Shown here: positions 10,237 to 49,639 of the stretch, in pieces
Layout of the letters: each line of letters starts with the position of its first letter
How positions within the stretch are numbered: the first letter of the stretch is position 1
Assembly: GCF_900177685.1 (NCBI RefSeq)
Contig: NZ_FXAY01000001.1
Coordinates: 124,001-188,000, forward strand
Length of the DNA stretch: 64,000 bases
Origin: Agreia pratensis
Lineage (GTDB): Bacteria > Actinomycetota > Actinomycetes > Actinomycetales > Microbacteriaceae
Reading direction: 5' to 3'
Made by a program: the position numbers and the translations under genes
Notes under the pieces: generated by a model
The model's database searches: none
The model's input: only the letters and a program-made list of their open reading frames with translations
Told to the model about the DNA's origin: nothing

Positions 10237-10637
10237 GAGTTGCTCCTGGATGCTTCAACGATCACGTTGGTGGACTTGATCACGGCAACGGCCACCGAGC
10301 CGGGCTTCAGGTCGAGGTCGCGAACCGCCTCGGTGCTCATGAGCGACACGACGCGGTGGGGGCCGCACTGCAGCTCGACCTGACTCATCACCAGGTCGCT
10401 CGTGACCTTCGTGACGAGCCCGACGAAACGGTTGCGTGCGGAACTGTTCATGTCAGACGGGTCGACCGGGTTGGCGGAGTGCTCTTTCGCCAGTCGAGCC
10501 AGGTCGACACCGTCGACGACCTTGCGGCCGCCCTCGTCGAGCGACGAGGCGAGCGCGCCGTTCTCGATCCAGCGCCGAACAGTGTCGTCGCTGACGCCGA
10601 GGAACACCGCGGCATCTCGTATCCGTATCTGCGTCAC
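10233..10637 (-). CDS. HTH-TOBE molybdate-sensing protein (MopI/ModE-like)
   Basis: This 134-residue protein combines an N-terminal MerR/excisionase-like helix-turn-helix (about 1-55, 'RIRDAAVFLGVSDDTVRRWIENG') with a C-terminal TOBE/molbindin domain (about 68-130, 'SSARNRFVGLVTKVTSDLVMSQVEL' split over the start of the domain). TOBE domains bind molybdate or tungstate, so the protein is a likely molybdate-responsive regulator. It is the first gene of the modABC operon, overlapping modA by ATGA, and is divergent from moeA across about 150 bp, so it may control both directions. Start GTG at 10637; a TAAAGT hexamer lies 7 bp upstream, compatible with a leaderless mRNA. Confidence 0.85.
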   Translation of the reverse strand: MTQIRIRDAAVFLGVSDDTVRRWIENGALASSLDEGGRKVVDGVDLARLAKEHSANPVDPSDMNSSARNRFVGLVTKVTSDLVMSQVELQCGPHRVVSLMSTEAVRDLDLKPGSVAVAVIKSTNVIVEASRSNS

Positions 10638-10784
10638 AAATACGACTTTAGTTCCTCATACGCGCCCCACTAGCTAACTTGCGTCTCGGTTGATCCATCT
10701 GTCTGGCGCAAATCGACCGAAAACCGGAATTATGAGTCGATTCGCGACCAGCGGATGCAACTGCTGTTGCGAGACAATGGAGCG

Positions 10785-21494: not shown

Positions 21495-21535
21495 CGGCCA
21501 CCGTGGGCCCCAAGAAGTTCATCGGAGGGCACACA

Positions 21536-22801: not shown

Positions 22802-23580
22802 TGAGCCCGATGACCCTGACGACAGAACCTCCTGCCGAGACGACGACGACCGAGCTTCTCCATTTCTCCGACGTCGCCATGACGTTTCCCAACGGCACGA
22901 CCGCGCTCTCCGGCGTCGATCTCACGGTGAAGAAGGGTGAGTTCGTCACCGTCGTCGGACCGTCGGGATGCGGAAAGTCCACGCTGCTGCGCATCGCCTC
23001 CGGCCTCACACCCGCGACGGCAGGCGAGACGAATGTCGCCACCAAGCGCATCGGCTACGTCTTTCAAGACGCAACGCTCCTCCCATGGCGAACCGTGCAG
23101 GCCAACGTCGAGCTTCTCGCCGAGCTGAACGGCATCCCCAAAAAGACGCGAGTGGCCGAGGCAGCCAAGGCCATCGAACTCGTGGGACTCGCGGGCTTCG
23201 AGAAGCAGCTGCCCAGAACGCTGTCGGGCGGAATGCGCATGCGCGCATCCCTGGCACGGTCGCTGACGCTCGACCCCGAGCTCTTTCTCTTCGACGAGCC
23301 GTTCGGTGCCCTCGACGAGATCACGCGAGAGCGCCTCAACGACGAGCTGATCAAGCTCTTCACCGAGCAGCAGTTCGCCGGGCTCTTCATCACCCACTCG
23401 GTGTCGGAGGCCGTCTACCTGTCGACCAGGGTCGTCGTGATGTCGGGACGACCGGGCAAGATCGTCGAGACCTTCGACGTTCCCTTCGCGTACCCGCGCG
23501 ACCCCGAGATCCGTTTCACCCCCGAGTTCGCCGAACTCGCCGGCGAGGTCTCGCACGCGCTCAGAAAGGGCCACTCGTGA
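22801..23580 (+). CDS. ABC transporter ATP-binding protein, nitrate/sulfonate/taurine (SsuB/ThiZ) type
   Basis: ATPase of 259 residues with Walker [11 protein letters not shown]-loop 'VFQDATLLPW', signature LSGGM and Walker [14 protein letters not shown]. The 'QDxxLLPW' sequence is typical of NMT1-linked importers. A GTG at 22798 is an alternative start. It overlaps the deaminase gene by one base and the permease gene by GTGA. With the following two genes it forms a complete importer. Confidence 0.92.
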   Translation: MSPMTLTTEPPAETTTTELLHFSDVAMTFPNGTTALSGVDLTVKKGEFVTVVGPSGCGKSTLLRIASGLTPATAGETNVATKRIGYVFQDATLLPWRTVQANVELLAELNGIPKKTRVAEAAKAIELVGLAGFEKQLPRTLSGGMRMRASLARSLTLDPELFLFDEPFGALDEITRERLNDELIKLFTEQQFAGLFITHSVSEAVYLSTRVVVMSGRPGKIVETFDVPFAYPRDPEIRFTPEFAELAGEVSHALRKGHS

Positions 23581-24446
23581 CCACGACCGCTCCACCGACC
23601 GGGCCGGTCGCCACGAACCCCAAGATCCGCACCATGTCCCGTGCATCCGACATGCCGAAGCGACGCGGCGGCCGTTTCCCGTCGTGGGTTCCGCCCGTGA
23701 TCGTCTTCATCGTGATTCTCGCGATCTGGTACTTCGTCAGCTACGTGCTGCTCGACCCGGCACGCTCGTTCCTGGTTCCTGCGCCCCACGTAATCATCGA
23801 AGAGGCATTCCTCGACCCGAAGGTCTTGGGCGACATCATGGGAGCCCTGGGGCGTTCGGCGGGAGTCGCACTCACGGGCCTCGCGATCGCCATCGTCATC
23901 GGCTTCGTCTGGGCTGTCGCCATGAGCCAGGCCCGCTGGATCGAGCGGTCGCTCTTTCCGTACGCCGTCATCCTGCAGTGCATCCCGATTCTGGCGCTCG
24001 TGCCGCTCATCGGGTTCTGGTTCGGGTTCGACTTTCCCGCGCGCGTGATCGTCTGCGTCATGATCGCGCTGTTCCCGATCGTGTCGAACACTCTCTTCGG
24101 CCTTCAGTCGGTCGACAAGGGTCAACGCGAACTGTTCCAGCTGCAGAAGGCCAGCCGCTGGACCGTGCTGCTGAAGCTCGAGTTCCCCGCCGCTCTTCCC
24201 GCGATCTTCGCCGGAATGCGCATCTCAGCCGGCCTCGCGGTCGTCGGCGCCATCGTGGGCGACTTCTTCTTCCGGCGAGGCGAGCCCGGGCTCGGATCCC
24301 TGATCAGCAACTACCAGTCCCGAGTGCAGGGCCCCGAACTGTTCGCCGCCATCATCGTCGCCTCGCTCTTCGGCGTCGTGGTCTTCCTCGTCTTCGGCTG
24401 GCTGGGCAAGCTCGCCGTCGGCCGCTGGTACGACTACAGCAAGTAG
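23577..24446 (+). CDS. ABC transporter permease, SsuC/ThiX-like
   Basis: A 289-residue inner-membrane permease. About 35 polar residues at the N terminus precede the first helix at 37-57. About six transmembrane segments follow, with a coupling-helix EAA-like loop at 'LFQLQKASRWTVLLKLEFPAALP'. It begins with GTG overlapping the ATPase stop (GTGA). One permease gene is present, so the membrane part is probably a homodimer. Confidence 0.9.
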   Translation: MTTTAPPTGPVATNPKIRTMSRASDMPKRRGGRFPSWVPPVIVFIVILAIWYFVSYVLLDPARSFLVPAPHVIIEEAFLDPKVLGDIMGALGRSAGVALTGLAIAIVIGFVWAVAMSQARWIERSLFPYAVILQCIPILALVPLIGFWFGFDFPARVIVCVMIALFPIVSNTLFGLQSVDKGQRELFQLQKASRWTVLLKLEFPAALPAIFAGMRISAGLAVVGAIVGDFFFRRGEPGLGSLISNYQSRVQGPELFAAIIVASLFGVVVFLVFGWLGKLAVGRWYDYSK

Positions 24447-24545
24447 GCCCACAGCAGCCGGCGATGCCCGACTCATCCGTTCCACAGCAGCACCATTCAC
24501 AGCACCGAACCGTTTTGCACCCTGCACATCACACAAGGAGATGAA

Positions 24546-25721
24546 ATGCGCATCACTCGATCGAGGTCACTCATGGCCGCGGGTCTTCTCGCCTCAACGG
24601 CACTCGTCCTCACCGGCTGCTCGGCCGGCGGAACCGACACCGCCACCGACGCAGCCAAAGATCTCAAAATCGGCTCGGTCGACCTCGCAGCTGCCGGCTG
24701 CCCTGCGACCATCACGATCCAGACCGACTGGAACCCGGAGGCGGAGCACGGCCACCTGTACTCCATGTTCGGTGACGATGCCGTTGTCGATGCGGGCAAG
24801 AAGAGCGTCTCGGGCCCCCTCTACTCGAAGGGCGAATACACGGGAGTGAATCTCGAGGTGCGCTCCGGTGGGCCCGCGATCGGCTTCCAGACCGTGACCT
24901 CGCAGATGTACACCGACGACAGCATCACCCTCGGCTATGCGAACACCGACGAGGCGATCCAGCTCTCGGCCGACATGCCCACGACGGCCGTCTTCGCTCC
25001 CCTCGAGATCAACCCGCAGATGATCATGTGGGATCCGAAGACGTACCCCGATGTGAAGACCATCGCTGATCTCGCGAAGGCCGGCGCCATCATCAAGTAC
25101 TTCGGCGGAGCGGCCTACATGGAGTACCTCAAGGGCGCAGGAATCGTTCCCGAGGCTCAGGCAGACGGCGGATACGACGGAACGCCCGCCAACTTCGTGA
25201 CCGCACAGGGCAAGGATGCGCAGCAGGGCTTCGCGAGCGCCGAGCCCTACATCTACGAGAACGAGGTCGACGCCTGGAAGAAGCCGGTCGCGTACCAGCT
25301 GATCCACGACGCCGGCTACCCGATCTATGCGGCGGCCGTCTCGGTGCGCTCAGCTGATCTCGAGAAGCTCTCGCCGTGCCTCACCAAGCTCGTGCCCGTT
25401 CTGCAGCAGGCAGAGGTCGACTACTTCGCCGACCCCGCCGCGACGAACAAACTCATCCTCGACCTCGTCGACCAGTTCGACACCGGATGGGTCTACGACG
25501 AGGGCGTAGCCGACTACTCTGTCGACACGATGAAGAAGCTCGGCCTGGTCAGCAACGGCGACAACGCGTACATCGGCGACTTCGACGAGGCGCGCGTTCA
25601 GAAGGTCCTCGACATCGACACGCCGATCTTCACCAAGCTCGGTACTCCGCCGGCAGAAGGCCTGAAGACCTCCGACCTCTTCACCAACGAGTTCATCGAT
25701 CAGACCATCGGTCTGAAGTAA
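24546..25721 (+). CDS. Substrate-binding lipoprotein, NMT1/THI5-like family
   Basis: A 391-residue extracytoplasmic binding protein lipid-anchored at Cys25 (lipobox LTGC). The mature part begins with 'ITIQTDWNPEAEHGHLYSMFG', the typical NMT1/THI5-like first strand, followed by 'GGPAIGFQTVTSQMYTDDSITLGYANTDEAI'. Relatives bind pyrimidine precursors of thiamine, taurine, riboflavin-like or other heterocyclic ligands. A strong AAGGAG site precedes the ATG. It is the final component of the importer begun at 22801. The ligand is unknown. Confidence 0.88.
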   Translation: MRITRSRSLMAAGLLASTALVLTGCSAGGTDTATDAAKDLKIGSVDLAAAGCPATITIQTDWNPEAEHGHLYSMFGDDAVVDAGKKSVSGPLYSKGEYTGVNLEVRSGGPAIGFQTVTSQMYTDDSITLGYANTDEAIQLSADMPTTAVFAPLEINPQMIMWDPKTYPDVKTIADLAKAGAIIKYFGGAAYMEYLKGAGIVPEAQADGGYDGTPANFVTAQGKDAQQGFASAEPYIYENEVDAWKKPVAYQLIHDAGYPIYAAAVSVRSADLEKLSPCLTKLVPVLQQAEVDYFADPAATNKLILDLVDQFDTGWVYDEGVADYSVDTMKKLGLVSNGDNAYIGDFDEARVQKVLDIDTPIFTKLGTPPAEGLKTSDLFTNEFIDQTIGLK

Positions 25722-25741
25722 CCCGTAGCTGCAGAACCGTC

Positions 25742-25802
25742 GGCCCTTCATCGGTCGCCTGTCGCACACCTCGAGTGAGTGACAGGTGACCGATGATGGG
25801 CC
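25742..25802 (+). promoter_or_regulatory. Long stem-loop between the binding-protein and oxidase genes
   Basis: Left arm GGCCCTTCATCGGTCGCCTG (25742-25761) pairs with the right arm CAGGTGACCGATGATGGGCC (25783-25802), with only a few mismatches and a short G/A-rich loop. The stem would be about 20 bp. No T-run follows, so a transcript-stabilising or processing hairpin, or a partial terminator limiting read-through to downstream genes, is more likely than a classical intrinsic terminator. Confidence 0.6.
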
Positions 25803-25835
25803 ATCATCATTCGGCACCATCTAAGGACCCGCACC

Positions 25836-27155
25836 ATGACCGACCTCACCGAGCCCATCGCATCCCTCGCCACTGAACTCAGCGCGATTCTGGGTGAGCG
25901 GGGCGTGACCACCGAACTCCGCGCCCGCGAGAAGGCCTCGGCCGACGGCTCGTATCTGTCGCCCATCATCACCGAGCAGCTTCCGCTGGGCCTCGCCGAC
26001 ATCGTGGCGTTCCCGACCACGGCCGAGCAGGTGGCCCAGGCGGTCGCCGCGGCCGTTCGTCACGGCGTGGGAATCACTCCTCGCGGCAAGGGAACCGGCA
26101 ACTACGGCCAGGCCATTCCGATCGAGAACGGTCTCGTGCTCGACCTCTCGAAGCTGCGAGGAGTCATCGAGGTCGGCAACGGTTTTCTCACGGCGCTGGC
26201 CGGCACACCGATCGTCACGATCGAACAGGCCGCTCGGGAGTCGGGCCAGCAGATCCTCATGTATCCCTCGACCGCGCAGTCCTCGATCGGCGGCTTCCTG
26301 TCGGGCGGCTCCGGCGGCACCGGATCGATCGCCCACGGCTCCAACCACGAGGGATTCGTTCTCGCTCTCGACGTCGTTCACGCCACCCCGGATGCGCAGC
26401 TCGTGCACGTCGACGGTGACGACGCGCAGCCGTATGTGCACACCTACGGAACGGCGGGCATCATCGCGCAGGCCACCATCGCGCTCGAGCCACTGCAAGA
26501 CTGGCGGGGTCTGTTCGCGAGCTTCGACACCTTCTCCGAGGCGATTTCCGTGATCCGCGAGATCGGACAACTCGAGCCCACCCCGCGCCTGGTCTCTGCC
26601 GATCTGCCGGTACTCGCCAATGCGCTGCCCGCCGACCCGGGCATCCCCAAAGACCGCGCGAGCCTGCGCGCCATCATCGACATCGCGGCCGTCCCCGCCG
26701 CGACGGCCCTCATCGAGGCCGCGGGAGGCCGCGTCGAAGAGGTGCGTGAAGGCCCCCAGACCGCCATGAAGCTCAGCATGATCTCGTACAACCACCCCAT
26801 CGAGTGGCTGCAGAAGAGTGACCCGGGCAAGTACTTCCACATCGAGGTCGCGGGCGACGCGCTCGTCGATCGCATCGACGAGGTGCACGCCGTGTACCCC
26901 GGCGGCATGCTGCACATCGAGGCCCAGAAGAATCGTCCGATCGGCATGCTGGCCGGCATCTACGAAAGCGCCGAGAAGGTCTACGAGGGCTTCGACAAAC
27001 TCGCGGCGATCGGCGTCGGCGTGCACAACCCGCATGTCTGGTTCGTCGACCACGAAGTCGAGCGCACCCTCGCACTCGCCGAGAGCACTGATCCTCGCGG
27101 GCTACTGAATCCCGGCAAACTGCAAGGAAAGAACGTCGTCGAGGCCACGTCGTGA
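25836..27155 (+). CDS. FAD-linked oxidase (GlcD-like)
   Basis: A 439-residue flavoprotein of the VAO/PCMH family. FAD-binding landmarks are 'AFPTTAEQVAQAVAAAVRHG', 'TPRGKGTGNYGQ' and 'SSIGGFLSGGSGGTGSIAHGS'. The C-terminal cap domain includes 'YPGGMLHIEAQKN', and the protein ends with the family 'DPRGLLNPGKL' motif. Relatives oxidise 2-hydroxy acids, amino acids or sugars. AAGGA lies upstream of the ATG. The stop overlaps the creatininase-like gene, so the two are co-expressed. The substrate is unknown; a 2-hydroxy or carbinolamine product of the upstream pathway is a reasonable guess. Confidence 0.85.
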   Translation: MTDLTEPIASLATELSAILGERGVTTELRAREKASADGSYLSPIITEQLPLGLADIVAFPTTAEQVAQAVAAAVRHGVGITPRGKGTGNYGQAIPIENGLVLDLSKLRGVIEVGNGFLTALAGTPIVTIEQAARESGQQILMYPSTAQSSIGGFLSGGSGGTGSIAHGSNHEGFVLALDVVHATPDAQLVHVDGDDAQPYVHTYGTAGIIAQATIALEPLQDWRGLFASFDTFSEAISVIREIGQLEPTPRLVSADLPVLANALPADPGIPKDRASLRAIIDIAAVPAATALIEAAGGRVEEVREGPQTAMKLSMISYNHPIEWLQKSDPGKYFHIEVAGDALVDRIDEVHAVYPGGMLHIEAQKNRPIGMLAGIYESAEKVYEGFDKLAAIGVGVHNPHVWFVDHEVERTLALAESTDPRGLLNPGKLQGKNVVEATS

Positions 27156-27949
27156 GCGCTTCGGGAACACGCAAACTCGTCGAGCTGTCGGGGCCGGCAG
27201 CGACCGCGGCGCTCGACGCCGACTCCGTGGTCGTGATCCCGACGGGCGCGATCGAGCACCACGGGTCGCACCTCCCCCTGATGACCGACTACCTGCTGGC
27301 GGATGCGATCGCGAACGCCGCCGTCGAGCGCGCCGCCTCGCAGGGCGTCGACGCGTGGATTCTGCCGACCCTGGCGTACACCAAGAGCGACGAGCACCAC
27401 TGGGCATCCGGAACCATGTGGCTCACGTGGGAGACGATGATGAACACCATCGTCGACCTGGGCAACTCGATCGCCGCAACCCCGGCGAACAAGGTGGCAT
27501 TCTTCAACGGCCACGGAGGAAACCTCGCGCTGCTGCAGGTCGCCTGCAGGGAACTGCGTCGTCGCTTCGGGCTGCAGACGTTTCTGCTCGGGCCTATCGT
27601 GCCTCCGATGGCAGACGGCACGGGCGACGGGCCAGACGAGCTGGGTCTGGGCATCCACGGAGGCCACAGCGAGACCTCGCTGATCATGCACATCCGGCCC
27701 GACCTGGTCGATCTCTCACTGGCTCAGCGCAGCGTGCCTGAGCACCTGGCCGACTACGAGCACATCGGGTTCAAGAAGCCCGTCTCGTTCGGCTGGCTGT
27801 CGAACGACTTCGGAACCGACGGCGTGCTCGGCGACCCGACCGCGGCCAACGCGGCGTATGGAGCAGAACTGTTCGAGCACTCCGTGGAACAGGCCGCGGC
27901 CGCGTTCGCCGAGATCGCACGCTTCGACCCGGCGGGGCCGTCGGCGTGA
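27152..27949 (+). CDS. Creatininase-family amidohydrolase
   Basis: A 265-residue protein with the metal-binding motifs of creatininases: 'IPTGAIEHHGSHLPLMTD' (Glu, His and Asp ligands), 'FFNGHGGNLALLQ' and 'GIHGGHSETSLIMHI'. The family hydrolyses cyclic or linear amides such as creatinine and 2-amino-5-formylamino-6-ribosylaminopyrimidinone formamide. It starts with GTG within the stop of the FAD oxidase gene. In this setting it could open a lactam or amide ring of a heterocyclic intermediate. Creatinine itself is not supported by any neighbour. Confidence 0.88.
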   Translation: MSASGTRKLVELSGPAATAALDADSVVVIPTGAIEHHGSHLPLMTDYLLADAIANAAVERAASQGVDAWILPTLAYTKSDEHHWASGTMWLTWETMMNTIVDLGNSIAATPANKVAFFNGHGGNLALLQVACRELRRRFGLQTFLLGPIVPPMADGTGDGPDELGLGIHGGHSETSLIMHIRPDLVDLSLAQRSVPEHLADYEHIGFKKPVSFGWLSNDFGTDGVLGDPTAANAAYGAELFEHSVEQAAAAFAEIARFDPAGPSA

Positions 27950-30811: not shown

Positions 30812-30988
30812 CAGGGTCCTTCCGGCCAGTCGCGCACCGACGGTGTTTCATCTCAGGGGGCGCGAATATTTCATGTTAGCTCCGGCGTGTAACACGGGTG
30901 TTTCCGAACCTGCCTCGGCGGTGGACACCCCATCACTAGGCTTGATTCGTCGATGCGACCACCGAAGAACCAAGGAGACGACGACGCC

Positions 30989-32350
30989 ATGGCAGAAAGC
31001 TACGACCTGGTCGTAAGGGCCGAGAGGGTACTGATCGATGGCGAGTTCCGCCCCGCGTCGGTCGCCACGGCCGGCGGCGTGATTGTCGCGATCGCAGACC
31101 TGGATGCGTCGTTCGACGCCTCAGAAACGGTCACTCTCCCGGGCGATCAGGTTCTCATTCCCGGCATCGTCGACACGCACGTGCATGTGAACGAACCCGG
31201 CCGCACCGACTGGGAGGGGTTCGCCAGCGCGACCCGTGCCGCCGCGGCCGGAGGCGTGACCACCATCATCGACATGCCGCTCAACAGCATTCCGCCGACA
31301 ACCACGGTCGAGGCGCTGGAGCTCAAGCGCCAGGCGGCGGGCCCGCAGGCCTCGGTCGACGTCGGGTTCTGGGGAGGCGCGATCCCGTCGAGCCTCGGGG
31401 CGTTGAAAGCAGTGCACGACGCCGGCGCATTCGGCTTCAAGGCGTTCCTGTCGCCCTCCGGCGTCGACGAGTTCCCCCACCTCGAGACCGAACAGCTCTT
31501 CGCCGCAGCACTCGAGATCGCCGAGTTCGGCGGTCTACTCATCGTGCACGCCGAAGACCCGGCTGTTCTCGACAAGAGCGAAAGCCACGGCGGCACCGGC
31601 TACCTCGACTTCGTGTCGAGCCGCCCCGACCTCGCCGAAGAAGACGCCATCGCGCACGTCATCGAGGCCGTGCGCTCCACCGGAGTGCGAGCCCACATTC
31701 TGCATCTCTCGAGCGCCCGCGCGCTTCCTCAGATCGAGGCGGCGAAGGCGGAGGGTCTTCCGATCACGGTCGAGACCTGCCCGCACTACCTGAGCTTCTC
31801 CGCCGAAGGCATTCCCGATGGAGGCACGCAGTTCAAGTGCTGCCCGCCTATCCGTGACGCAGGCAATCGCGAGCTGCTCTGGCAGGCACTCGAGTCCGGG
31901 CTCATCGACATCGTCGCCTCCGATCACTCCCCCTCGACCAAGGAGCTCAAGTTCGCCCACGGCGGCGACTTCGAACTCGCGTGGGGCGGCATCTCAGGCC
32001 TGCAGCTCAGCTTCAGCGCCGTCTGGACAGGCGCGAAGTCCCGAGGCATTCCTCTCGAGACGGTCGTCGAATGGATGTCTGTCAAGACCGCCCGGTTCGC
32101 CGGCCTCTCGCAGAAGGGCCGCATCGAGGTAGGCGCCGACGCCGACCTCGTGGCGTTCGCGCCGGACGCCACATTCACCGCGAGCGCCGACACGCTGCTG
32201 CACAAGAACAAGGTGTCGGCCTTCGACGGATCGGAGCTCACGGGCCTGGTCGCCGTCACGTGGCTGGCCGGCGTGCCGGTCTACACGAGCGGCGCGATCG
32301 ACGACGCGTCCGCATCCACCCCCACCGGCCGGCTGCTCGCTCGCGCCTGA
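30989..32350 (+). CDS. allB: Allantoinase AllB
   Basis: Hydrolyses allantoin to allantoate in the cytosol. The 453-residue protein has the dihydroorotase/allantoinase metal motifs: 'DTHVHVNEPGRTDWEGFASAT', 'GFKAF' with the carbamylated-lysine position, 'HAEDP', 'HILHLSSARA' and the 'ASDHSPS' aspartate. AAGGAG precedes the ATG at 30989; an in-frame ATG at 30953 is less likely. It opens the run allB-uricase-guaD. The upstream 177-bp divergent region contains AACACGGGTGTT, a small palindrome that could be an operator. Confidence 0.94.
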   Translation: MAESYDLVVRAERVLIDGEFRPASVATAGGVIVAIADLDASFDASETVTLPGDQVLIPGIVDTHVHVNEPGRTDWEGFASATRAAAAGGVTTIIDMPLNSIPPTTTVEALELKRQAAGPQASVDVGFWGGAIPSSLGALKAVHDAGAFGFKAFLSPSGVDEFPHLETEQLFAAALEIAEFGGLLIVHAEDPAVLDKSESHGGTGYLDFVSSRPDLAEEDAIAHVIEAVRSTGVRAHILHLSSARALPQIEAAKAEGLPITVETCPHYLSFSAEGIPDGGTQFKCCPPIRDAGNRELLWQALESGLIDIVASDHSPSTKELKFAHGGDFELAWGGISGLQLSFSAVWTGAKSRGIPLETVVEWMSVKTARFAGLSQKGRIEVGADADLVAFAPDATFTASADTLLHKNKVSAFDGSELTGLVAVTWLAGVPVYTSGAIDDASASTPTGRLLARA

Positions 32351-32389: not shown

Positions 32390-33310
32390 ATGGCAATCGT
32401 TCTCGGACCCAACCAGTACGGCAAGGCAGAGAACCGCGTCGTGCGCATCACGCGCGACTCCACCCGCCACGAGATTCGCGACCTGAACGTATCGACGGCC
32501 CTGCGCGGAGACTTCTCTGCAGCACACCTCGTGGGCGATCAGTCGCAGGTTCTGCCCACTGACACGCAGAAGCAGACCGCGTACTCCTACGCCAAGGAGA
32601 AGGGTGTCTCCTCGATCGAGGCATACGGGCTCGAGTTGGCTCGCCACTTCGTCGACGACGTCGTTCCTGTTGAGGGCGCCCGCATCGAGATCGAGGAGTA
32701 TGCCTGGGAGCACGCTGTCGTCGACGGCGAGGAGCACGAGCACACCTTCGTGCGCCTGGGGCAGGAGGTGCGCACCGCCTCGATCACCGTCGAGGGAAAG
32801 GGTGCCGAGCAGAAGACCTGGGTGATCGGCGGCCTCAAAGACCTCGTCATCCTCAAGTCGACGGGCAGCGAGTTCCACGGCTTTCTCAAAGACGAGTACA
32901 CCCTGCTCGAGCCCACCACCGATCGTGTGATGGCCACCGCCCTCGTGGCACAGTGGCGCTTCGCCGAGACCGGTGCCACGTGGGCGGAGATCGACTGGAA
33001 CGACGTCTACACGGGCGTGAAGCGCATCCTCATCACGAAGTTCGCGACCATCCAGTCGCTGGCCCTGCAGCAGACGCTCTACGAGATGGGCAAAGCCGTG
33101 CTCGAGGAGTACCCGTTCATCGCCGAGATCAAGTTCTCCGCTCCCAACAAGCACCACTTCCTCTACAACCTCGAGACCTTCGGGGTCGAGAACAACAACG
33201 AGGTCTTCCACGCCGACGACCGCCCCTACGGCCTCATCCAGGCCACCGTCATGCGCGACGATGCACCGGATGCCGGACCCGCGTGGACGCCCGCGGCCAA
33301 CCTCGCGTAG
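32390..33310 (+). CDS. Urate oxidase (uricase)
   Basis: Oxidises urate to 5-hydroxyisourate with O2 and no cofactor. The 306-residue protein has the tandem T-fold and the uricase signature region 'LVILKSTGSEFHGFLKDEYT', plus 'ILITKFATIQSLALQQTLYEMG' and 'NKHHFLYNLE' containing the active-site histidine. Length is normal. AGGAG lies upstream of the ATG. It is followed eight bases later by the guanine deaminase gene, and its product is handled by the UraH and UraD proteins encoded at 35815-36659. Confidence 0.96.
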   Translation: MAIVLGPNQYGKAENRVVRITRDSTRHEIRDLNVSTALRGDFSAAHLVGDQSQVLPTDTQKQTAYSYAKEKGVSSIEAYGLELARHFVDDVVPVEGARIEIEEYAWEHAVVDGEEHEHTFVRLGQEVRTASITVEGKGAEQKTWVIGGLKDLVILKSTGSEFHGFLKDEYTLLEPTTDRVMATALVAQWRFAETGATWAEIDWNDVYTGVKRILITKFATIQSLALQQTLYEMGKAVLEEYPFIAEIKFSAPNKHHFLYNLETFGVENNNEVFHADDRPYGLIQATVMRDDAPDAGPAWTPAANLA

Positions 33311-35814: not shown

Positions 35815-36159
35815 CTAGCTGCCGCGGTAGGTCGAATACGCGAACGGGCTCAGTAGAAGCGGCACGTGATAGTGAGCCTCGCCGTCTGCCAGCTCGAACA
35901 CCACCTGCACCTCGGGGTAGAACGCCGACTGCCCGAGCGACGCGAAGTACGACTGCGTATCGAACGTGACCCTGTAACGGCCGGCCGGCACGCTCTCGGG
36001 GCCGAACTGCGAGACGCGACCATCGGCATCCGTCACCGCCTCAGCGAGTGTGACCCAGCGGTCAGCAGAGAGGTGCGTCAGGGTGACGGGAACGCCGGCC
36101 GCCGGCGTTCCCGTGGCCGCGTCGAGAACGTGGCTGGTGATGTGGCTGCGTGCGCTCAC
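35815..36159 (-). CDS. uraH: 5-hydroxyisourate hydrolase (UraH/PucM)
   Basis: Hydrolyses 5-hydroxyisourate, the uricase product, to OHCU. The 114-residue transthyretin-like protein shows 'SHVLDAATGTPAAGVPV' (first His of the active site), an internal arginine segment 'AGRYRVTFDTQSYF', 'YPEVQVVFEL' and the diagnostic C terminus YRGS. It starts with GTG at 36159, overlapping the uraD stop by GTGA, so the two successive enzymes are translationally coupled. Confidence 0.95.
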   Translation of the reverse strand: MSARSHITSHVLDAATGTPAAGVPVTLTHLSADRWVTLAEAVTDADGRVSQFGPESVPAGRYRVTFDTQSYFASLGQSAFYPEVQVVFELADGEAHYHVPLLLSPFAYSTYRGS

Positions 36160-36659
36160 TCGGCAACCTCGATGCCACGCTCGGTGAACGTCTTCTCGAG
36201 GCGAAGAAGGGCGATTTCGCGCAGCTGCTGTTCGACGATGACGAACTCCTCGTCGTCGTCGAGGCGGATGCGCCGGTTCAGCTCGGCAAGGATCTCGGCG
36301 CGACTGCGCCCGGCAGCACGGATGAGGAAGACCCGGTCGAATCTCTTCTCGTAGAGCGCATTGCCCGCGGCGATGGCCGCCGCGGTCTCGGCATCGTCGT
36401 CGCCCAGCGACTCTTGCTCTGAGCGCGAGAACATCTGCGCCGCACCCTCCCCGACGGGTTTGTCGCCGATACGCGGGTGGTCGGCGAGCGCTTGCTCGAC
36501 CTCGTCGCGGGTCAGGGGGTTCGCGGCAATTCGGCCGGCCTCGAGCAGATCGTCGACCGAGGCGAAGGGCGCTTGCTCTGCGACCTCGTCGATCCAGCGC
36601 GGAACCGCGAGGCATGCGTGCAGATCGACACGCAGATGGTCGGCAGAGTGATCGGTCAT
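36156..36659 (-). CDS. uraD: OHCU decarboxylase (UraD)
   Basis: Decarboxylates 2-oxo-4-hydroxy-4-carboxy-5-ureidoimidazoline to S-allantoin. The 167-residue all-helical protein has the family motifs 'ALADHPRIGD' (catalytic His), 'SRSEQESLG' and '[29 protein letters not shown]'. The ATG at 36659 follows AAAGG at good spacing; a GTG at 36677 is an unlikely alternative. It is divergent from the MocA-like gene. Confidence 0.95.
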   Translation of the reverse strand: MTDHSADHLRVDLHACLAVPRWIDEVAEQAPFASVDDLLEAGRIAANPLTRDEVEQALADHPRIGDKPVGEGAAQMFSRSEQESLGDDDAETAAAIAAGNALYEKRFDRVFLIRAAGRSRAEILAELNRRIRLDDDEEFVIVEQQLREIALLRLEKTFTERGIEVAE

Positions 36660-36755
36660 GACCGGCCTTTCAAACACTGTGCACCCCCGCCGTGGTGCGC
36701 GAGCGACACCGCAATTCTATTCGGCGGCACCGACAGCCGGGCCTACGATGAGGCC

Positions 36756-43524: not shown

Positions 43525-44388
43525 TCAGTAAAAAGATGTCGGGGTTTCGAGCTCGTCGAGAGCGTCGTAAACGCTCGTAATCGTAGCTATTCTCGTGCGG
43601 CCATCACGCACGTTCACGCCGAGCACGCCGCTCGCCAGCAGGTTCATCAGACTCATGGCAGCCGCGTAGCTGTCGAACGCTGAGACGCTGTCGACCGGGC
43701 ACTCCAGCCATTGGACGCACCCCTCGGCATACCGACGTGCAGACGAATCCGAGATGAGAATCACGGGCACGCCCCGCTCCTGGAGCGCCTGCATGATCAG
43801 TGCGAAACCAGAGGGGCGACGCCGAAACCCCACGAGCACCACGACATCGCGCGAGCCCAAGCCAGCCAGGTCCTCTCCGAGCGATTGACCGGGCACGGGA
43901 GCAAGCCGCACTCGGCCCCGAGCCTGCGCCAGCTGCTGCCGCAGGTGCAGCGCAAGCGGATAGCTGTTGCGCAAGCCGACCAGCACGACCTCGCCGGCGC
44001 CCGCGATGAGCCGGGCGGCGGCATCCAGTCGCCCATCGTCGAGCCCGGCGAGCATCTTCTGCAGATTCTCGGTCTCGTGGCTCGCATGCGCCGCGAGCGC
44101 CGACGGCGTTCCGGCCGCGGCCCCGACTCCGCCGAGGGGCGCTCCCTGACTGCGCAGGGCGCGGGCGTGCTCGCGAACTTCGGCCGAGTCAGAGAACCCC
44201 AGTCGGCGAAACAGCCGCGACACGGTGGCCTTCGACACCCCGCTCATCTTCGCGAGCTCGGTGGCGCTGTACACGGCGAGATCACCGAGGTGGTCGAGGA
44301 TGACGTCGGCGGCCCGCTGCTCCTGCGGAGACAGGGCAGCGTATTGGCTGTCGATCCGCTGCCCGATCGTCGGCGGCGCTGTGGCCAC
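43525..44388 (-). CDS. MurR/RpiR-family transcriptional regulator
   Basis: A 287-residue regulator with an N-terminal RpiR helix-turn-helix (about 1-80; 'LSPQEQRAADVILDHLGDLAVYSATELAKMSGVSKATVSRLFRRLGF' overall) and a C-terminal SIS sugar/phospho-ligand domain (about 120-260; 'VVLVGLRNSYPLALHLRQQL', 'DVVVLVGFRRRPSG', 'VILISDSSARRYA'). It starts with GTG two bases after the allC stop, so it is the last gene of the allantoate operon. RpiR proteins control purine and ureide catabolism in several actinobacteria, so this operon is the likely target. Confidence 0.88.
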   Translation of the reverse strand: MATAPPTIGQRIDSQYAALSPQEQRAADVILDHLGDLAVYSATELAKMSGVSKATVSRLFRRLGFSDSAEVREHARALRSQGAPLGGVGAAAGTPSALAAHASHETENLQKMLAGLDDGRLDAAARLIAGAGEVVLVGLRNSYPLALHLRQQLAQARGRVRLAPVPGQSLGEDLAGLGSRDVVVLVGFRRRPSGFALIMQALQERGVPVILISDSSARRYAEGCVQWLECPVDSVSAFDSYAAAMSLMNLLASGVLGVNVRDGRTRIATITSVYDALDELETPTSFY

Positions 44389-44390
44389 CG

Positions 44391-45638
44391 TTATCCCTCG
44401 TATCCGTCGGCGAGGCGCAGAACCGTGGCCTCGAACGCGTCGAGCGCCTTCGCCACGTCTGCCTCGGTGACGTGCTCCTCGGGGTTGTGGCTCACGCCGC
44501 CCTTGCAGCGCACGAAGATCATGCCGATGTCGGCGATCTCGGCGATGGCCATCGCATCGTGCCCTGCGCGCGAGAACAGAGACATGGGCCGACTGTCACC
44601 CGTCGACCGGATGCCGTCGGCGATCGCATCGCGCAGCGGCCTGGCGCAGACGGCCGCCTTGGCCGAATGGGTCTGGATGCTCGTGAGCCGCAGTCGTCGT
44701 CGCTGGCAGATCTCGAGAATGGCCTCTTCGATCTGCAGCCACACCTTGTCACGCTCGGTGTCGTATTCGCCTCGCAGGTCGAGGCTGAACTCGACCTTGC
44801 CGGGAATCACGTTGACTGCATCGGGAAACACTTCGAGGTGCCCGACCGTGGCGATGAGTTGGGCGGATCGAGCGATGCGCTCGATCGTCGTGATGGCCTC
44901 GGCCGCTCCGGCAAGGGCGTCGCGTCGTCGCTCGTACGGGGTTCCCGAGTGGCCCGCCTGACCGGTGATGGTCAAGAGAAAGCGGCGCGCCCCGGCGATC
45001 GACGACACGACACCGAGCGCCTTGTTCTCGTCTTCGAGGTAGGGCCCCTGCTCGATGTGGGTCTCGAGGTACCCCACGAAGTCGCCGCGCGATCGGGCGG
45101 CCTCGCCCACGGCATCCGGATCGAGGCCGAAGTGCACGTACGCGTCACGCAGCGAGATGCCGTCTTGGTCTTCGAGTTGCCACCACTCGTCGAGCCAGGT
45201 GCCCGCGAGCGCGCGGCTGCCGAGCAGCGCACGACCGAAGCGGGTGCCCTCCTCGTCGCCGAACGCGACGACCTCGAGTGCGAACGGAAGCTCGCGGCCC
45301 GACGACCGGATACGGTCGACGACCGCGATAGCCGAGAGCACGCCGAGGATTCCGTCGTACCGCCCCGCCGAGGGAACGGTGTCGAGATGCGATCCGAGCA
45401 GCAGCGCGGGCAGACCGGGAGTCGCGCCCTCGAGCCTGCCGCACTGGTTACCCGCGGCATCCTGCCAGGTGGTCATGCCCGCCTCGGTCATCCAGCGACC
45501 GGCAAGGGCGTTGACGGCCGCGTGCTGGGGCGAGAGGTACACGCGCTCGATGAGCCCGTCGTCCATCGACGAGTAGGTGGCGAGTTCTTCGCAGCGCTCG
45601 AGAATGGCGTTGGCGGTGGTTGAGGCCGGCCGCGTCAT
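44391..45638 (-). CDS. allC: Allantoate amidohydrolase
   Basis: Hydrolyses allantoate to ureidoglycine, CO2 and ammonia. The 415-residue M20-family metallopeptidase-like protein has 'LLLGSHLDTVPSAGRYDGILGV' (first metal His/Asp), 'VVAFGDEEGTRFG' (catalytic Glu-Glu), 'LETHIEQGPYLE' and 'GHSGTPYERRRDAL'. The last metal-site segment is 'FVRCKGGVSHNPEEHV'. This set is typical of allantoate amidohydrolase/ureidoglycolase-type hydantoinase/carbamoylase proteins. The start overlaps the pucG stop by ATGA, so the sequential enzymes are coupled. An N-carbamoyl amino acid hydrolase is the main alternative. Confidence 0.9.
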   Translation of the reverse strand: MTRPASTTANAILERCEELATYSSMDDGLIERVYLSPQHAAVNALAGRWMTEAGMTTWQDAAGNQCGRLEGATPGLPALLLGSHLDTVPSAGRYDGILGVLSAIAVVDRIRSSGRELPFALEVVAFGDEEGTRFGRALLGSRALAGTWLDEWWQLEDQDGISLRDAYVHFGLDPDAVGEAARSRGDFVGYLETHIEQGPYLEDENKALGVVSSIAGARRFLLTITGQAGHSGTPYERRRDALAGAAEAITTIERIARSAQLIATVGHLEVFPDAVNVIPGKVEFSLDLRGEYDTERDKVWLQIEEAILEICQRRRLRLTSIQTHSAKAAVCARPLRDAIADGIRSTGDSRPMSLFSRAGHDAMAIAEIADIGMIFVRCKGGVSHNPEEHVTEADVAKALDAFEATVLRLADGYEG

Positions 45639-46852
45639 GCGCCGACTCCCGACGGCGCACGAATGGCCCGGTCTGCATCGGCGTAGATCTCGTACGCCGC
45701 CCCGACTCCTCCGCCGGGTGTCACGGATGCGCCGGCCCGGCGCAACACGGCTTCGAGAGCGGCGAGCGTGGTGAGTACGGTGTCGCGGCGAGCGTTGTAG
45801 CCCATCGTTCCGATGCGCCAGACCTTGCCGTGCAGCGGGCCGAACGACGTGCCGATCTCGATGCCGAAGTCGTTCAGGAGCTCTCCTCGCACGGCGTCGC
45901 CGTTCACTCCCTCGGGGATCATGACGGCGACGACGTTGTTCATCTTGTGGGCGAGATCGCCGAAGACGGCGAGCCCGAGCCCTTGAACGCCGGCGAGCAT
46001 GGCCGAGCCGTGAAGCCGATGCCGCTCGACGGCGTTCTCGATTCCCTCGTCGATCAGCAGGCGTGCGCACTCGCGCGCCCCATAGAGCATCGTGGTGGCC
46101 TCGGTGTGGTGGTTGAGGCGCTTCGGCCCCCAGTAGTCGAAGATCATCGCGAGGTCGAAGTAGTTCGAGCGAATCGGATGCGCGGTCACCGCGTCGCCCG
46201 CCTCACGGATACCCGCCTCGATGCTCTTGCGCGCCGTGATTCGCTCTACCGCAGCAGGCGAAAAGGTGGAGGGAGCCGAGCCCGACGGGCCGGCCAGGCA
46301 TTTCTGCAGGCCCGCGGTCACGACATCGATGCCCCAGGCATCCGTCTCGATGGTGTTGCCGGCGAGAGACGCGGTCACGTCGGTGTAGAAGAGCACGCCA
46401 TGCTGCGCACAGATGGCACCGAGCTCGTCGAGCGGCTGCGCCACGGTGGTGGAGGTGTCGCCGTGCACCACGGCGAGGAGTGCGGGCTGCACCTCGATGA
46501 TCGCCGCCTCGATCTCCTCGGGCTCGAAGACCTGGCCCCAGGGAACCTCGATGACGTGCACCTCGGCGCCGCAGCGCTCGGCGATCTCGCGTAGCAGGTG
46601 TCCGAAGCGGCCGAAGATGGGAACGAGCACGCGGTCGCCGGGCGCGATGAGCGAGACGAGAGCGGCCTCGATGCCGGCTCGCGAGGTGCCGTCGACGAGC
46701 AGGGTCTGCTCATTCGACGTCTTGAAGACGCCGCGGTAGAGCTCCATCGTCTCGCTCATGTATGCCGTCATCGCCGGGTCGTACTGGCCCACGAGCTGGG
46801 CCGACATGGCGCGTAGAACCCTCGGGTCGGCGTTGATCGGACCTGGCCCCAT
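45635..46852 (-). CDS. pucG: (S)-ureidoglycine-glyoxylate aminotransferase
   Basis: PLP enzyme of the alanine-glyoxylate aminotransferase family that transaminates ureidoglycine with glyoxylate to oxalurate and glycine. 'MGPGPINADPRVL' is the family N-terminal glycine motif, 'DVVTAGLQKCLAGPSG' carries the PLP lysine, and 'WRIGTMGYNA' is near the end. 405 residues from the ATG at 46852. Homologues usually start some 10-20 residues earlier. The reading frame is open upstream with a fitting sequence (PQPINPPQRLL) but without ATG, GTG or TTG before a stop; a rare ATT at about 46928, behind AGGTG, is conceivable. It is coupled to allC and follows the HpxZ-amidase fusion gene. Confidence 0.9.
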   Translation of the reverse strand: MGPGPINADPRVLRAMSAQLVGQYDPAMTAYMSETMELYRGVFKTSNEQTLLVDGTSRAGIEAALVSLIAPGDRVLVPIFGRFGHLLREIAERCGAEVHVIEVPWGQVFEPEEIEAAIIEVQPALLAVVHGDTSTTVAQPLDELGAICAQHGVLFYTDVTASLAGNTIETDAWGIDVVTAGLQKCLAGPSGSAPSTFSPAAVERITARKSIEAGIREAGDAVTAHPIRSNYFDLAMIFDYWGPKRLNHHTEATTMLYGARECARLLIDEGIENAVERHRLHGSAMLAGVQGLGLAVFGDLAHKMNNVVAVMIPEGVNGDAVRGELLNDFGIEIGTSFGPLHGKVWRIGTMGYNARRDTVLTTLAALEAVLRRAGASVTPGGGVGAAYEIYADADRAIRAPSGVGA

Positions 46853-46986: not shown

Positions 46987-48549
46987 TCAGGGGATGAACG
47001 TGGACGCGAGGTCGATGAGCGCGAGGTCGGAGCCGCGCGGGCCCACGAGGCAGAGACCGGCAGGAGCCCCCTCTACTTCGAGCAGCGGCACAGACAACGC
47101 CGGGTATCCGCCGATGCCCGCGAAGCAGGTCAACGCGAGCGTCGCAGCCCGTGCCGCATCGATCTCGCCGGGATCGGCGGTCAGCGATGGCGCGGTCGAG
47201 GCGGTCGACGGCAGCAGCAGGATGCGCCCCGCGAGGGCCTCGTCGAGCTGGGTGCGGGCGGCCGCCAAAACCTCGCGAGCAGATGACTCCGCGTCGTCGG
47301 TGATGGTCGACGCAGTCTCGAACCTCGAGGCGACGTCGCTCGCCAGGACGCCCGGGTGGGAGGTGATCCACTCGCCGTGTTGACGCCACGCCTCGGCACC
47401 CTGAACCGTGCGGAACGCATCGAAGAACCCCGATGTGTCACCGAGGTCGACCACGCCCACCTCGCCGACGAGGCCGGCGGCCTCGAGCCGGCCCACGGCG
47501 TCCACCAACGCGCCCTGCATTGCGGGGTCGGCGGCGAAGAGCAGCTCTGTCGAGATAACGAACTGTGCGTCGACAGGCTGCTGCGACTCCGCATCGAGCG
47601 TGCTCGCTGCGGCGGCGCGCAGCACCGGGGCAGACCTCGTCAGCCATCCGACCGTGTCGAACGAGGGCGCCAACGGCAGCAGTCCGGCGGAGTCGACGGC
47701 GCCGTGGGTGGTGCGCAGACCCCAGAGCCCCTGATACGAGGCGGGCACGCGGATCGACCCGGCCGTGTCGGTGGCGAGCGCGATGCTCGCGTGCCCAGTT
47801 GCTACCGCAGATGCGGGCCCACTCGAGGAGCCACCCGGGATCGCCCCCGGAACCGCTCCGTTCGGCGGGGTGCCGTAGTGCACGTTCTTTCCAGCGATCG
47901 AGTAGGCGAATTCGTCGGTCTGCGCGATGCCTCGAACGGATGCGCCGGCCGCGAGCAGGGCCGCGAGCGCGGGCGCGTTCGCGTCAGCGGGCATCGCCTC
48001 TGACAGGTATTCGGGAATGCCGGCACCGACAGCGAAGCCCCGCACGTCGAACAGGTCTTTCACCGCGACCGTCTCACCGTCGAGCGCTCCCCCGTCTGAG
48101 GTGGTGGGGGCCACGAGCGGGTTGCCGAGCACACGCCAGATGGCGGTGTTCATGGCAGCCGGCGCGCCCGCGACCTGGGCCGACTCGACGACCCAGCCGG
48201 CGGCATCCGCGTGCCGCGCCCACAGCTGCGTGACGAGCCCACGCCCGCCGGAGCGCGGCTCGTTCTCGCTGACGATGAGCGCGTACTCGTGCGAGAGCAC
48301 ACGCACGTGGATCGAGGTGATCGTGCGGACGGGCGCGCCACCTCGGGCGCCGCGGAACGAACTGATGCGATCGTGACCCACGAGCAGGCCGCCCGCGTCG
48401 CCGCGCAGTGTGGCGTTGCCCGGAGCGAAGGCCGCGTCGAGCGCCTCGAGGTCGTTCGTGAGAAGTGCGTTCTCATATGCCCAGAAGGCGTCGATGAGGC
48501 CATCGGGCAGCTCGCCCGTGACAGATGTGGGAGGGATTCGCTCAGCCAT
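46987..48549 (-). CDS. AtzH/HpxZ-like domain fused to an amidase (candidate oxalurate amidohydrolase)
   Basis: A 520-residue fusion. Residues about 10-130 are a SnoaL-fold AtzH/HpxZ-like (DUF3225) domain ('LEALDAAFAPGNATLRGDAGGLLVGHDRISSFR' split over helices and strands). Residues about 150-515 are an amidase-signature hydrolase with catalytic Lys164 (VAVKDLFDV), the cis-Ser in GGSSSG near 241, and nucleophile Ser265 in DTAGSIRVPA. In Klebsiella-type hpx clusters HpxY (amidase) and HpxZ (DUF3225) are separate proteins tied to oxalurate breakdown. Here both are one polypeptide next to PucG, the enzyme that makes oxalurate. It overlaps the formamidase-like gene by 8 bp. Confidence 0.82.
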   Translation of the reverse strand: MAERIPPTSVTGELPDGLIDAFWAYENALLTNDLEALDAAFAPGNATLRGDAGGLLVGHDRISSFRGARGGAPVRTITSIHVRVLSHEYALIVSENEPRSGGRGLVTQLWARHADAAGWVVESAQVAGAPAAMNTAIWRVLGNPLVAPTTSDGGALDGETVAVKDLFDVRGFAVGAGIPEYLSEAMPADANAPALAALLAAGASVRGIAQTDEFAYSIAGKNVHYGTPPNGAVPGAIPGGSSSGPASAVATGHASIALATDTAGSIRVPASYQGLWGLRTTHGAVDSAGLLPLAPSFDTVGWLTRSAPVLRAAAASTLDAESQQPVDAQFVISTELLFAADPAMQGALVDAVGRLEAAGLVGEVGVVDLGDTSGFFDAFRTVQGAEAWRQHGEWITSHPGVLASDVASRFETASTITDDAESSAREVLAAARTQLDEALAGRILLLPSTASTAPSLTADPGEIDAARAATLALTCFAGIGGYPALSVPLLEVEGAPAGLCLVGPRGSDLALIDLASTFIP

Positions 48550-49639
48550 GATGCCCTTCGAAGTCGGAGACGCGAACGCGGGCGTGCACGCCGGAGATCA
48601 GGTCGACGACCTGGGAGATGTTGAAGTCGGTGGCTGCGCTGAGGTAGGCGTAGGCGAGGTCTTCGTCCATGCCGTAGCGAGCGTGCAGCAGCGAGATGGC
48701 CGCGCGCACGCACTTGCGCACCGCCTCGTCGAGGTCTTCGTCCATGCCTGTGGGAACGAGGAACTCCTGCGTCTCGGCGAGAGGCCCGACGAGGGCGCCG
48801 AATGCCGCGAGAGCCTCGCTCTGAGGCACGACCTCGAAGCGCACGGTCACTCGAAGAGATGCCTCCATCGCAGTGAGCGCGACCTCGCCGTCGCCCTGAG
48901 CGAAGTGCGGGTCTCCGACGTAGGCCAGCGCGCCGTCGACCTGCACGGGGAGGTAGAGCGAGCTGCCTTCGGTGAGCAGGTTGATGTCGATGTTTCCGCC
49001 GTGCGATCCGGGCGGTACCGAGTGCGGGCGCGTCGATCCGGCAACGGCCACGCCCATGATTCCGAGGAACGGGCGCAGGGGGAATCGCACCGAGCGCTCT
49101 CCCCCGGCAACAAGCGGAAGGGTTCCGACCTGGCTTCCATCGGCGTCGTCGTCGACCGCGGCGAAGATGCTCACCGAGCCTTCGACGAGCGGAAATTCGC
49201 CGGGAAGCGCTCCCCGGCCATGCCTGTTCGAGATCACGCCGTAGGGCACGCGCGGGGTCGCCTCGAGCACCGTCATCTTGAGCAGATCCCCCGGCTTCGC
49301 GCCCCGGATGCGGATGGGCCCGGTCACGACGTGCGGCCCGTCGACCTTGGGGTCGCGCTGGTAGCCGGATGCCGCGAGCGCGATCGCGTCGTCGAGCACG
49401 TTCTCGCGACCTACCCCGTGGCCTGCGAAGTAGGACACGGGATCGCGGCCCTGATCTTCGAGCACACCCTCGTGACTCAACGTGTCGATCGTGACCTCAT
49501 CGCCGGAGTCGATGGTGAGAACCGCTGTGTCGGTGGCGCATGGCAGTCGGCCCCAGAGCACGTTCTCGACAGTCGACGGCAGGTAGTGGGCGGACTGGAT
49601 GAATCCCTGTCCGGGCTGGAGCGGTGCGGTGAACGGCAT
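48542..49639 (-). CDS. Acetamidase/formamidase-family protein
   Basis: A 365-residue FmdA/AmdA family enzyme. Features are 'VLTIDSGDEVTIDTLSHEG', 'GPIRIRGAKPGDLLKMTVLE', 'GIMGVAVAG' and 'GSHGGNIDINLLTEGSSLYLPVQVDGALAYVGDPHFAQGDGEVALT', the most diagnostic block, across the central region. Members hydrolyse formamide, acetamide or other short amides. It is the first gene of the operon amidase-like - HpxZ/amidase - pucG - allC - rpiR. Oxamate or formamide-like end products of ureide breakdown are plausible substrates, by inference only. The ATG at 49639 has GGAAGG at a slightly long distance. Confidence 0.87.
   Translation of the reverse strand: MPFTAPLQPGQGFIQSAHYLPSTVENVLWGRLPCATDTAVLTIDSGDEVTIDTLSHEGVLEDQGRDPVSYFAGHGVGRENVLDDAIALAASGYQRDPKVDGPHVVTGPIRIRGAKPGDLLKMTVLEATPRVPYGVISNRHGRGALPGEFPLVEGSVSIFAAVDDDADGSQVGTLPLVAGGERSVRFPLRPFLGIMGVAVAGSTRPHSVPPGSHGGNIDINLLTEGSSLYLPVQVDGALAYVGDPHFAQGDGEVALTAMEASLRVTVRFEVVPQSEALAAFGALVGPLAETQEFLVPTGMDEDLDEAVRKCVRAAISLLHARYGMDEDLAYAYLSAATDFNISQVVDLISGVHARVRVSDFEGHHG

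Follow-up and report, generated by a model that had tools for sequence, protein, structure and literature searches.

A fused AtzH-amidase protein encoded beside pucG in Agreia pratensis, a candidate oxalurate-consuming enzyme of actinobacterial uric-acid degradation

A stretch of 64,000 nucleotides from Agreia pratensis (contig NZ_FXAY01000001.1, positions 124,001 to 188,000; hereafter the window) was found to encode a single protein in which an AtzH-like domain is joined to an amidase-signature domain, in an operon with pucG, the gene of the oxalurate-making ureidoglycine-glyoxylate aminotransferase. From its sequence and genomic setting, the fusion very probably acts somewhere between oxalurate and oxalate, and at about even odds (a probability of roughly 0.5) it is the enzyme that consumes oxalurate in a hydrolytic pathway of actinobacteria for uric acid and allantoin. 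The amidase domain would remove the terminal amide of oxalurate as ammonia, yielding N-carboxy-oxamate, the AtzH domain would take CO2 off this unstable compound to leave oxamate, and the FmdA-type enzyme encoded by the first gene of the operon would hydrolyse oxamate to oxalate and ammonia. This reading is built on the genes, domains and catalytic residues described below, the full set of urate-to-oxalurate genes, the co-occurrence with pucG and the absence of the alternative enzymes searched for. What the fusion acts on, which half-reaction comes first and what FmdA does are predictions, the scheme for the two domains following the analogy with AtzE and AtzH.

The fusion gene and its operon

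The fusion gene (46987..48549, minus strand) is a single open frame of 520 amino acids, and the plus-strand reading of the same interval is interrupted by stops. The AtzH-like (DUF3225) domain spans residues 20-127 (48169..48492, minus strand) and scored 53.5 bits against PF11533, and the amidase-signature domain spans residues 151-511 (47017..48099, minus strand) and scored 148 bits against PF01425, the cut-off being 27 bits in both cases. A preliminary description of this DNA had claimed such a single-chain protein with an intact Lys164-Ser-Ser265 triad; both claims hold, Lys164, Ser241 and Ser265 all being present. Each triad letter is kept in 68 of 69 aligned rows (the fragmented loci L098 and L099 were removed before alignment), and the sequence belongs to PF01425, the GGSSSG motif included.

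The operon starts with an FmdA/AmdA-family (acetamidase/formamidase) gene (48542..49639, minus strand; 365 amino acids; PF03069, 119.2 bits, cut-off 27) with its ATG at 49639, the stop of which overlaps the start of the fusion gene by 8 bases. After the fusion and a gap of 134 bases follow pucG (45635..46852), allC for allantoate amidohydrolase (44391..45638; NF006775, 527.1 bits when scored from 45635, cut-off 479) and a gene for an RpiR/MurR-type regulator (43525..44388; HTH_6 and SIS domains assigned with Pfam), all on the minus strand. Compared with enzymes of solved structure, the pucG product scored 589 bits against 3nnk, the Klebsiella ureidoglycine-glyoxylate aminotransferase, and 445 bits against 3isl, Bacillus subtilis PucG. 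The pucG and allC genes share a 4-base ATGA overlap, and the true start of pucG may lie a little upstream of 46852. The location of the fusion between a formamidase-family gene and pucG, as first described, was thereby reproduced.

Genes for the earlier steps were located elsewhere in the window: urate oxidase (32390..33310, plus strand; TIGR03383, 350.3 bits, cut-off 168.4), hydroxyisourate hydrolase uraH (35815..36213, minus strand, start codon approximate; TIGR02962, 139.1 bits, cut-off 87.45), OHCU decarboxylase uraD (36156..36677, minus strand; TIGR03180, 152 bits, cut-off 139.4) and allantoinase allB (30953..32350, plus strand; TIGR03178, 550.3 bits, cut-off 357.85). As each exceeds its curated cut-off, the urate-to-oxalurate gene set is complete within the window, and these genes together with pucG and allC agree with the oxalurate-making ureide context in which the fusion had been placed.

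The fusion is present in five other Agreia records at 86-88% identity, with the gene order fmdA, fusion, pucG, allC, rpiR kept, and is therefore not an assembly accident. A contig scan with the fusion protein alone returned these five loci and one fragment of a Microbacteriaceae metagenome-assembled genome; wider relatives came from genome searches, which showed the fusion to be kept in other families as well. Within one family (f45), the order fmdA, fusion, uraD, uraH, uox, allB, pucG, allC, rpiR was seen in 7 of 10 pucG-holding loci.

Linkage of the fusion and FmdA to pucG

Co-occurrence was assessed across 296 sampled genomes of the class, the window's own genome included, among which relatedness inflates all counts. 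Matches were accepted at E <= 1e-40 for the amidase, E <= 1e-90 for pucG and E <= 1e-60 for FmdA relatives, giving 47, 20 and 49 genomes, respectively. The fusion-type amidase was present in all 20 pucG genomes and FmdA in 19 of them, the exception being G190. The association of amidase and pucG had a hypergeometric P of 1.7e-18 by genome and of 1.2e-9 by genus (all 10 pucG genera fall among the 19 amidase genera of 115), in neither case corrected for ancestry. A fairer test than these whole-sample counts is the comparison within g52 and g53, two genera of the window's own family, where four genomes hold pucG, the amidase and FmdA and eight hold none of the three.

Physical linkage was examined at 36 fused loci, comprising 23 from the class sample and 13 from closer relatives (six of these of the same genus); regions were retrieved for all but four of the 47 amidase genomes (G093, G154, G278 and G280). 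The preliminary description had proposed surveying the fusion for proximity to pucG, and pucG lies within 10 kb of 27 of the 36 loci (15 of 23 in the class sample alone), with both pucG and FmdA within that distance at 25. Unrelated pathways as the main neighbours had been raised as a possibility; no cyanuric-acid cluster was seen at the actinobacterial loci, although no AtzD search was run.

The FmdA-family gene follows pucG almost as closely. Relatives scoring at least 459 bits were found in 18 of the 296 genomes, all 18 being pucG genomes, and in an FmdA tree of 40 rows the 29 pucG rows require three label changes, with one Rhodococcus plasmid row among them and two long ones, L077 and L080, basal to them. 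A linkage nearly as tight as that of the fusion implies that FmdA must have a step of its own; of the formamidase-family gene first described, the adjacency stands and the status of a mere neighbour does not. The true-formamidase equivalog NF045496 gave 78.4 bits against a cut-off of 500, only the wider PF03069 being passed, and identity as a true formamidase was ruled out.

Other enzymes able to take over from PucG were sought in the 27 genomes with a pucG cluster, again including that of the window. Searches of the window's genome returned neither AllG of oxamic transcarbamylase (present in 8 of the 27) nor any member of PF01019, the gamma-glutamyltransferase superfamily that holds HpxW (present in 17). 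AtzE/HpxY was found above cut-off in none of the 27, and urease, present in 9, gave no match in the remaining 18, that of the window included. Among the enzymes tested, only the fusion and FmdA are therefore left as consumers of the PucG product here. The preliminary description had proposed an oxalurate route free of the carbamoyltransferase; the absence of AllG from the window's genome agrees with this, but such a route is not new, the Klebsiella hpx system having already been named as one.

The two domains and their known relatives

Among NCBIfam models, the amidase half is closest to PRK08310 (NF006169), with 374.8 bits, slightly under the cut-off of 391. Its scores on the AtzE/HpxY models were far below threshold (130.3 bits on TIGR02715, cut-off 425.75; 140.6 bits on PRK09201, cut-off 461), whereas Klebsiella HpxY, used as a control, scored 683 and 773.5 bits. 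HpxY and AtzE share 53% identity with one another and 28% and 29%, respectively, with the window amidase, and in the amidase tree one Paraburkholderia protein joins them in a clade of their own (support 100/99). Orthology to HpxY was ruled out by this low identity, the sub-cut-off profiles and the separate clade, and the initial equation of the amidase half with HpxY was accordingly given up. The companion equation of the AtzH half with HpxZ fared likewise, since the HpxZ equivalog NF033625 gave 46.7 bits (50.1 in the genome search) against a cut-off of 135. A GatC-like small subunit (AtzG/HpxX) has no room directly beside the fusion, given the 8-base overlap and the 134-base gap, these flanks being the part of the genome inspected for it. 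An AlphaFold model of the fusion computed from six sequences reached a mean predicted local distance difference test score (pLDDT) of 39 and was unusable.

Amidases of pucG genomes tend to group together: the tree requires 8 changes of pucG label compared with 21.8 expected on shuffling. This tree was calculated without five distant or paralogous rows, among them L100 and L101, the only amidase matches of G225 and G238. Two rows carry the pucG label by genome rather than by locus (L081 of G264 and L029 of G044), two were labelled as lacking pucG though their genomes were not searched for it (L021 and L123), and a reversed fusion described below was labelled 'alone'.

In Pseudomonas sp. ADP the amidase AtzE yields 1,3-dicarboxyurea, which AtzH probably decarboxylates according to work with reconstitution and mutants, Tyr22 and Arg46 being residues that matter (PMC6219798). 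In the numbering of that source, which is three higher than that of the pADP-1 gene product, AtzH residues Tyr22, Arg46, Arg63, Arg66, Arg73 and Gln108 align with Tyr25, Arg49, Arg66, Arg69, Arg75 and Gln108 of the fusion, and are kept in 37, 36, 37, 36, 37 and 37 of 37 fused domains, respectively. The sole exception at both Arg46 and Arg66 is G037, whose half AtzH domain (L030) was counted as fused and may stem from a wrongly set start or a frame error. Three further positions of the pocket, 94, 96 and 106, vary, and are Asn, Pro and Val in the window fusion. With its catalytic residues conserved and its pocket positions varying, the AtzH half looks catalytically competent with an altered pocket.

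The AtzH half is nevertheless dispensable, as four of the 20 pucG genomes (G102, G259, G190 and G264) have the amidase without it, and a search of these genomes with PF11533 gave no match anywhere. Since G102 and G259 are placed among fused relatives in the amidase tree, AtzH was probably lost there. Loss of AtzH from a retained amidase would be expected of a domain that accelerates a reaction able to proceed unaided.

A close functional parallel is the Klebsiella hpx cluster (L130), the arrangement of which is outlined in PMC6219798 and which combines a class-V aminotransferase (annotated as 'alanine--glyoxylate aminotransferase family'), the RpiR-type HpxU, HpxX, an AtzE-family amidase and HpxZ. 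It differs in using an AtzE-type HpxY with a small HpxX and a separate HpxZ, where Agreia has a single chain with a PRK08310-like amidase and no HpxX alongside, and in using HpxW where the Agreia locus has FmdA. In the literature, HpxW is cited as oxamate amidohydrolase (PMC5270733), HpxY is given as oxalurate amidohydrolase in a paper with a figure legend that names it differently (PMC12625717), and K. pneumoniae is reported as urease-positive and without AllFGH genes (PMC11326118). No gene is listed between hpxU and hpxX in the K. pneumoniae stretch (L130 4631-6407). The longest plus-strand open stretch found there (L130 4601-6420) is 455 amino acids and a gamma-glutamyltransferase relative was matched over 199 amino acids only; HpxW may be interrupted in L130, or a clipped reading may be at fault.

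The AtzG-AtzE-AtzH system resembles the fusion in its catalytic Tyr and Arg residues and in its sequence of events, the amidase deaminating and AtzH probably decarboxylating the product (PMC6219798), but consists of separate proteins with an amidase 29% identical, in the cyanuric-acid pathway. E. coli oxamic transcarbamylase AllFGH likewise consumes oxalurate (PMC11326118) but makes carbamoyl phosphate, and the search of the window's genome gave nothing that matches its AllG. Allophanate hydrolase AtzF also carries an amidase and a second catalytic domain in one chain; however, the second domain is different and lies at the opposite end, and the amidase is 27% identical. The C-terminal domain of AtzF is a decarboxylase.

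Proteobacterial amidases beside hpxZ on plasmids of Caballeronia, Azospirillum, Roseomonas and Pseudoroseomonas are 39-44% identical to the window amidase. These pairs are unfused, occur in either order and have no ureide genes annotated in the stretches; scoring with NF006169 covered, among the Proteobacterial amidases, the Paraburkholderia one alone. The Caballeronia and Azospirillum pairs (L122 2004-10553, L125 3475-11313) lie beside DUF1116 (AllG-family), molybdenum hydroxylase and SRPBCC genes, again with no ureide gene annotated. A literature search, largely outside subscription journals and with no query directed at FmdA, found no title or abstract opening on an AtzH-amidase fusion or on FmdA in oxalurate breakdown; given this limited coverage, such absence is weak evidence of novelty.

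Division of labour and competing explanations

The allocation of the oxalurate step to the amidase is favoured by G190, which keeps the amidase beside pucG with no close FmdA (best match 86.6 bits). G240, where the fusion stays in the ureide operon and FmdA lies elsewhere, counts in the same direction. In Variovorax, a similar amidase adjoins a gamma-glutamyltransferase-family protein 47% identical over 199 amino acids to the presumed Klebsiella HpxW, the reference being an unannotated frame taken for HpxW; with an HpxW-like oxamate enzyme at hand, the amidase would be left with the oxalurate step.

Several observations weigh against the main reading. Paraburkholderia points in the opposite direction to Variovorax, as its PRK08310 amidase (415.7 bits, cut-off 391) lies beside a RutB-like hydrolase, an AtzE-family amidase and HpxZ, which suggests that it acts after AtzH and not before. 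HpxY is the amidase whose name is tied to oxalurate, and the window amidase is no orthologue of it. A pucG match is lacking from 27 of the 47 genomes with the amidase and from 30 of the 49 with FmdA. Nine of the 36 fused loci are without pucG within 10 kb; seven of these are in genomes with no pucG match, an eighth is in G044, which carries pucG at another place, and the ninth is in G014, which the pucG search did not cover. The amidase of G264 lies far from that genome's own pucG cluster, which says little on the division of labour. Oxalyl-CoA decarboxylase was found above cut-off in none of the 27 ureide genomes, so that no oxalate sink was found. The strongest reason against reading the substrate from the domains alone is the occurrence of the AtzH-amidase module in at least two settings, detailed below.

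The same enzymes could share out the steps differently, with FmdA deaminating oxalurate, AtzH decarboxylating N-carboxy-oxamate and the amidase hydrolysing oxamate to oxalate and ammonia. This is considered unlikely, though it has points in its favour: AtzH and the amidase would then act in the order in which they stand in the chain, like AtzH and AtzF in the cyanuric-acid pathway, and FmdA is the first gene, with a pucG linkage (19 of 20) near that of the fusion. The PRK08310 amidase of Paraburkholderia largidicola also fits, standing with an AtzE-family amidase and HpxZ in a stretch in which no allophanate hydrolase is annotated. Malonamidase, whose substrate malonamate is a short acid-amide, is among the PDB matches of the fusion. 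Both G190 and Variovorax, as set out above, speak against it. The Paraburkholderia stretch (L131 8198-12131) additionally encodes an ATP-binding cassette (ABC) importer of the BMP type, and loci of Variovorax and Rhizobium (L132 2374-11461, L133 725-9140) share the importer type, have one gene for a cysteine hydrolase and one for a similar amidase, and carry a gamma-glutamyltransferase gene instead.

That the fusion scavenges side products by acting on a different ureido acid, such as ureidoglycolate, N-carbamoylglycine or allophanate, is improbable, although it is this possibility that the other genomic settings of the module bring to mind. Five of the nine pucG-distant fused loci have nearby genes for one or more of luciferase-like monooxygenases (L075, L079, L086), isochorismatases (L075, L076), a metallo-beta-lactamase (L075) and creatininase-family proteins (L073, L076); for L029, L032, L073, L077 and L087 the flanks were checked against proteins of the window alone. 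At six split loci of family f36, AtzH and the amidase are neighbouring genes with a creatininase and a divergent FmdA within 10 kb. The window's genome itself encodes a second protein in the reverse order, amidase then AtzH (G000:C2:29086-30579; L033 9087-10580). Genes for a GntR regulator and a flavoprotein stand on one side of it and those for a xanthine/uracil permease and an alpha/beta hydrolase on the other, a setting that possibly marks another ureide or nucleobase-like pathway. Against a different substrate for the fusion of the window stand the clustering of ureide-operon amidases by pucG label, their genome-by-genome agreement with pucG, and the absence from the window's genome of all known oxalurate and oxamate enzymes searched for. 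That the two domains occur fused in either order, and also as separate paired genes, speaks for a functional link between the AtzH and amidase activities.

Two further arrangements were noted around these modules. The only one of the six split loci scored against Pfam, L088 of G095, has AtzH fused to a metallo-beta-lactamase domain (10471-11916). An unfused amidase of this type is encoded downstream of it, and genes of the isochorismatase, creatininase, luciferase-like and amine-oxidase types lie around them. In the window, positions 21503-27949 hold genes for an amidohydrolase, ABC-transporter-like proteins (by reading), a FAD_binding_4 oxidoreductase and a creatininase-family protein. At L076 of G263, FAD_binding_4 and creatininase genes adjoin an AtzH-amidase fusion, an isochorismatase and FmdA, and by this likeness the row in the window may belong to a related pathway.

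There is a slim chance that oxalurate is consumed by an enzyme encoded elsewhere in the genome and that the co-occurrence reflects operon hitch-hiking; AllG does accompany the ureide genes in 8 of the 27 genomes, but it has no match in the other 19, the window's genome among them, and all 12 genomes of g52 and g53 agree. Cleavage of the inner amide of oxalurate to oxalate and urea, for which one hydrolase would do and which the urease of 9 of the 27 genomes would suit, is very improbable, as it leaves the AtzH domain without a role and as 18 of the 27 genomes have no urease match (urea carboxylase/amidolyase was not searched for); for the window's genome it was rejected on the latter ground.

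The conserved fusion is best read as a variant of the hydrolytic oxalurate branch assembled from different parts, with its substrate and step order predicted. It is tentatively suggested, at slightly less than an even chance, that actinobacteria have a second hydrolytic oxalurate pathway, put together independently, in which both Klebsiella steps (HpxXYZ and HpxW) have been replaced by non-orthologous enzymes, namely a single-chain deaminase-decarboxylase of AtzH plus a PRK08310-like amidase and a new, FmdA-family oxamate amidohydrolase, AtzH being a mobile decarboxylase domain for N-carboxy-amides. The proposed substrates, oxalurate and oxamate, are simple compounds, which makes the claim cheap to test. 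If true, two enzyme groups that actinobacterial annotations call no more than 'amidase' and 'acetamidase/formamidase family' would gain a function, the last gap of a purine-nitrogen pathway in actinobacteria would close, and there would be a clear case of an amidase to which a decarboxylase domain has been attached repeatedly, pulling an unstable intermediate.

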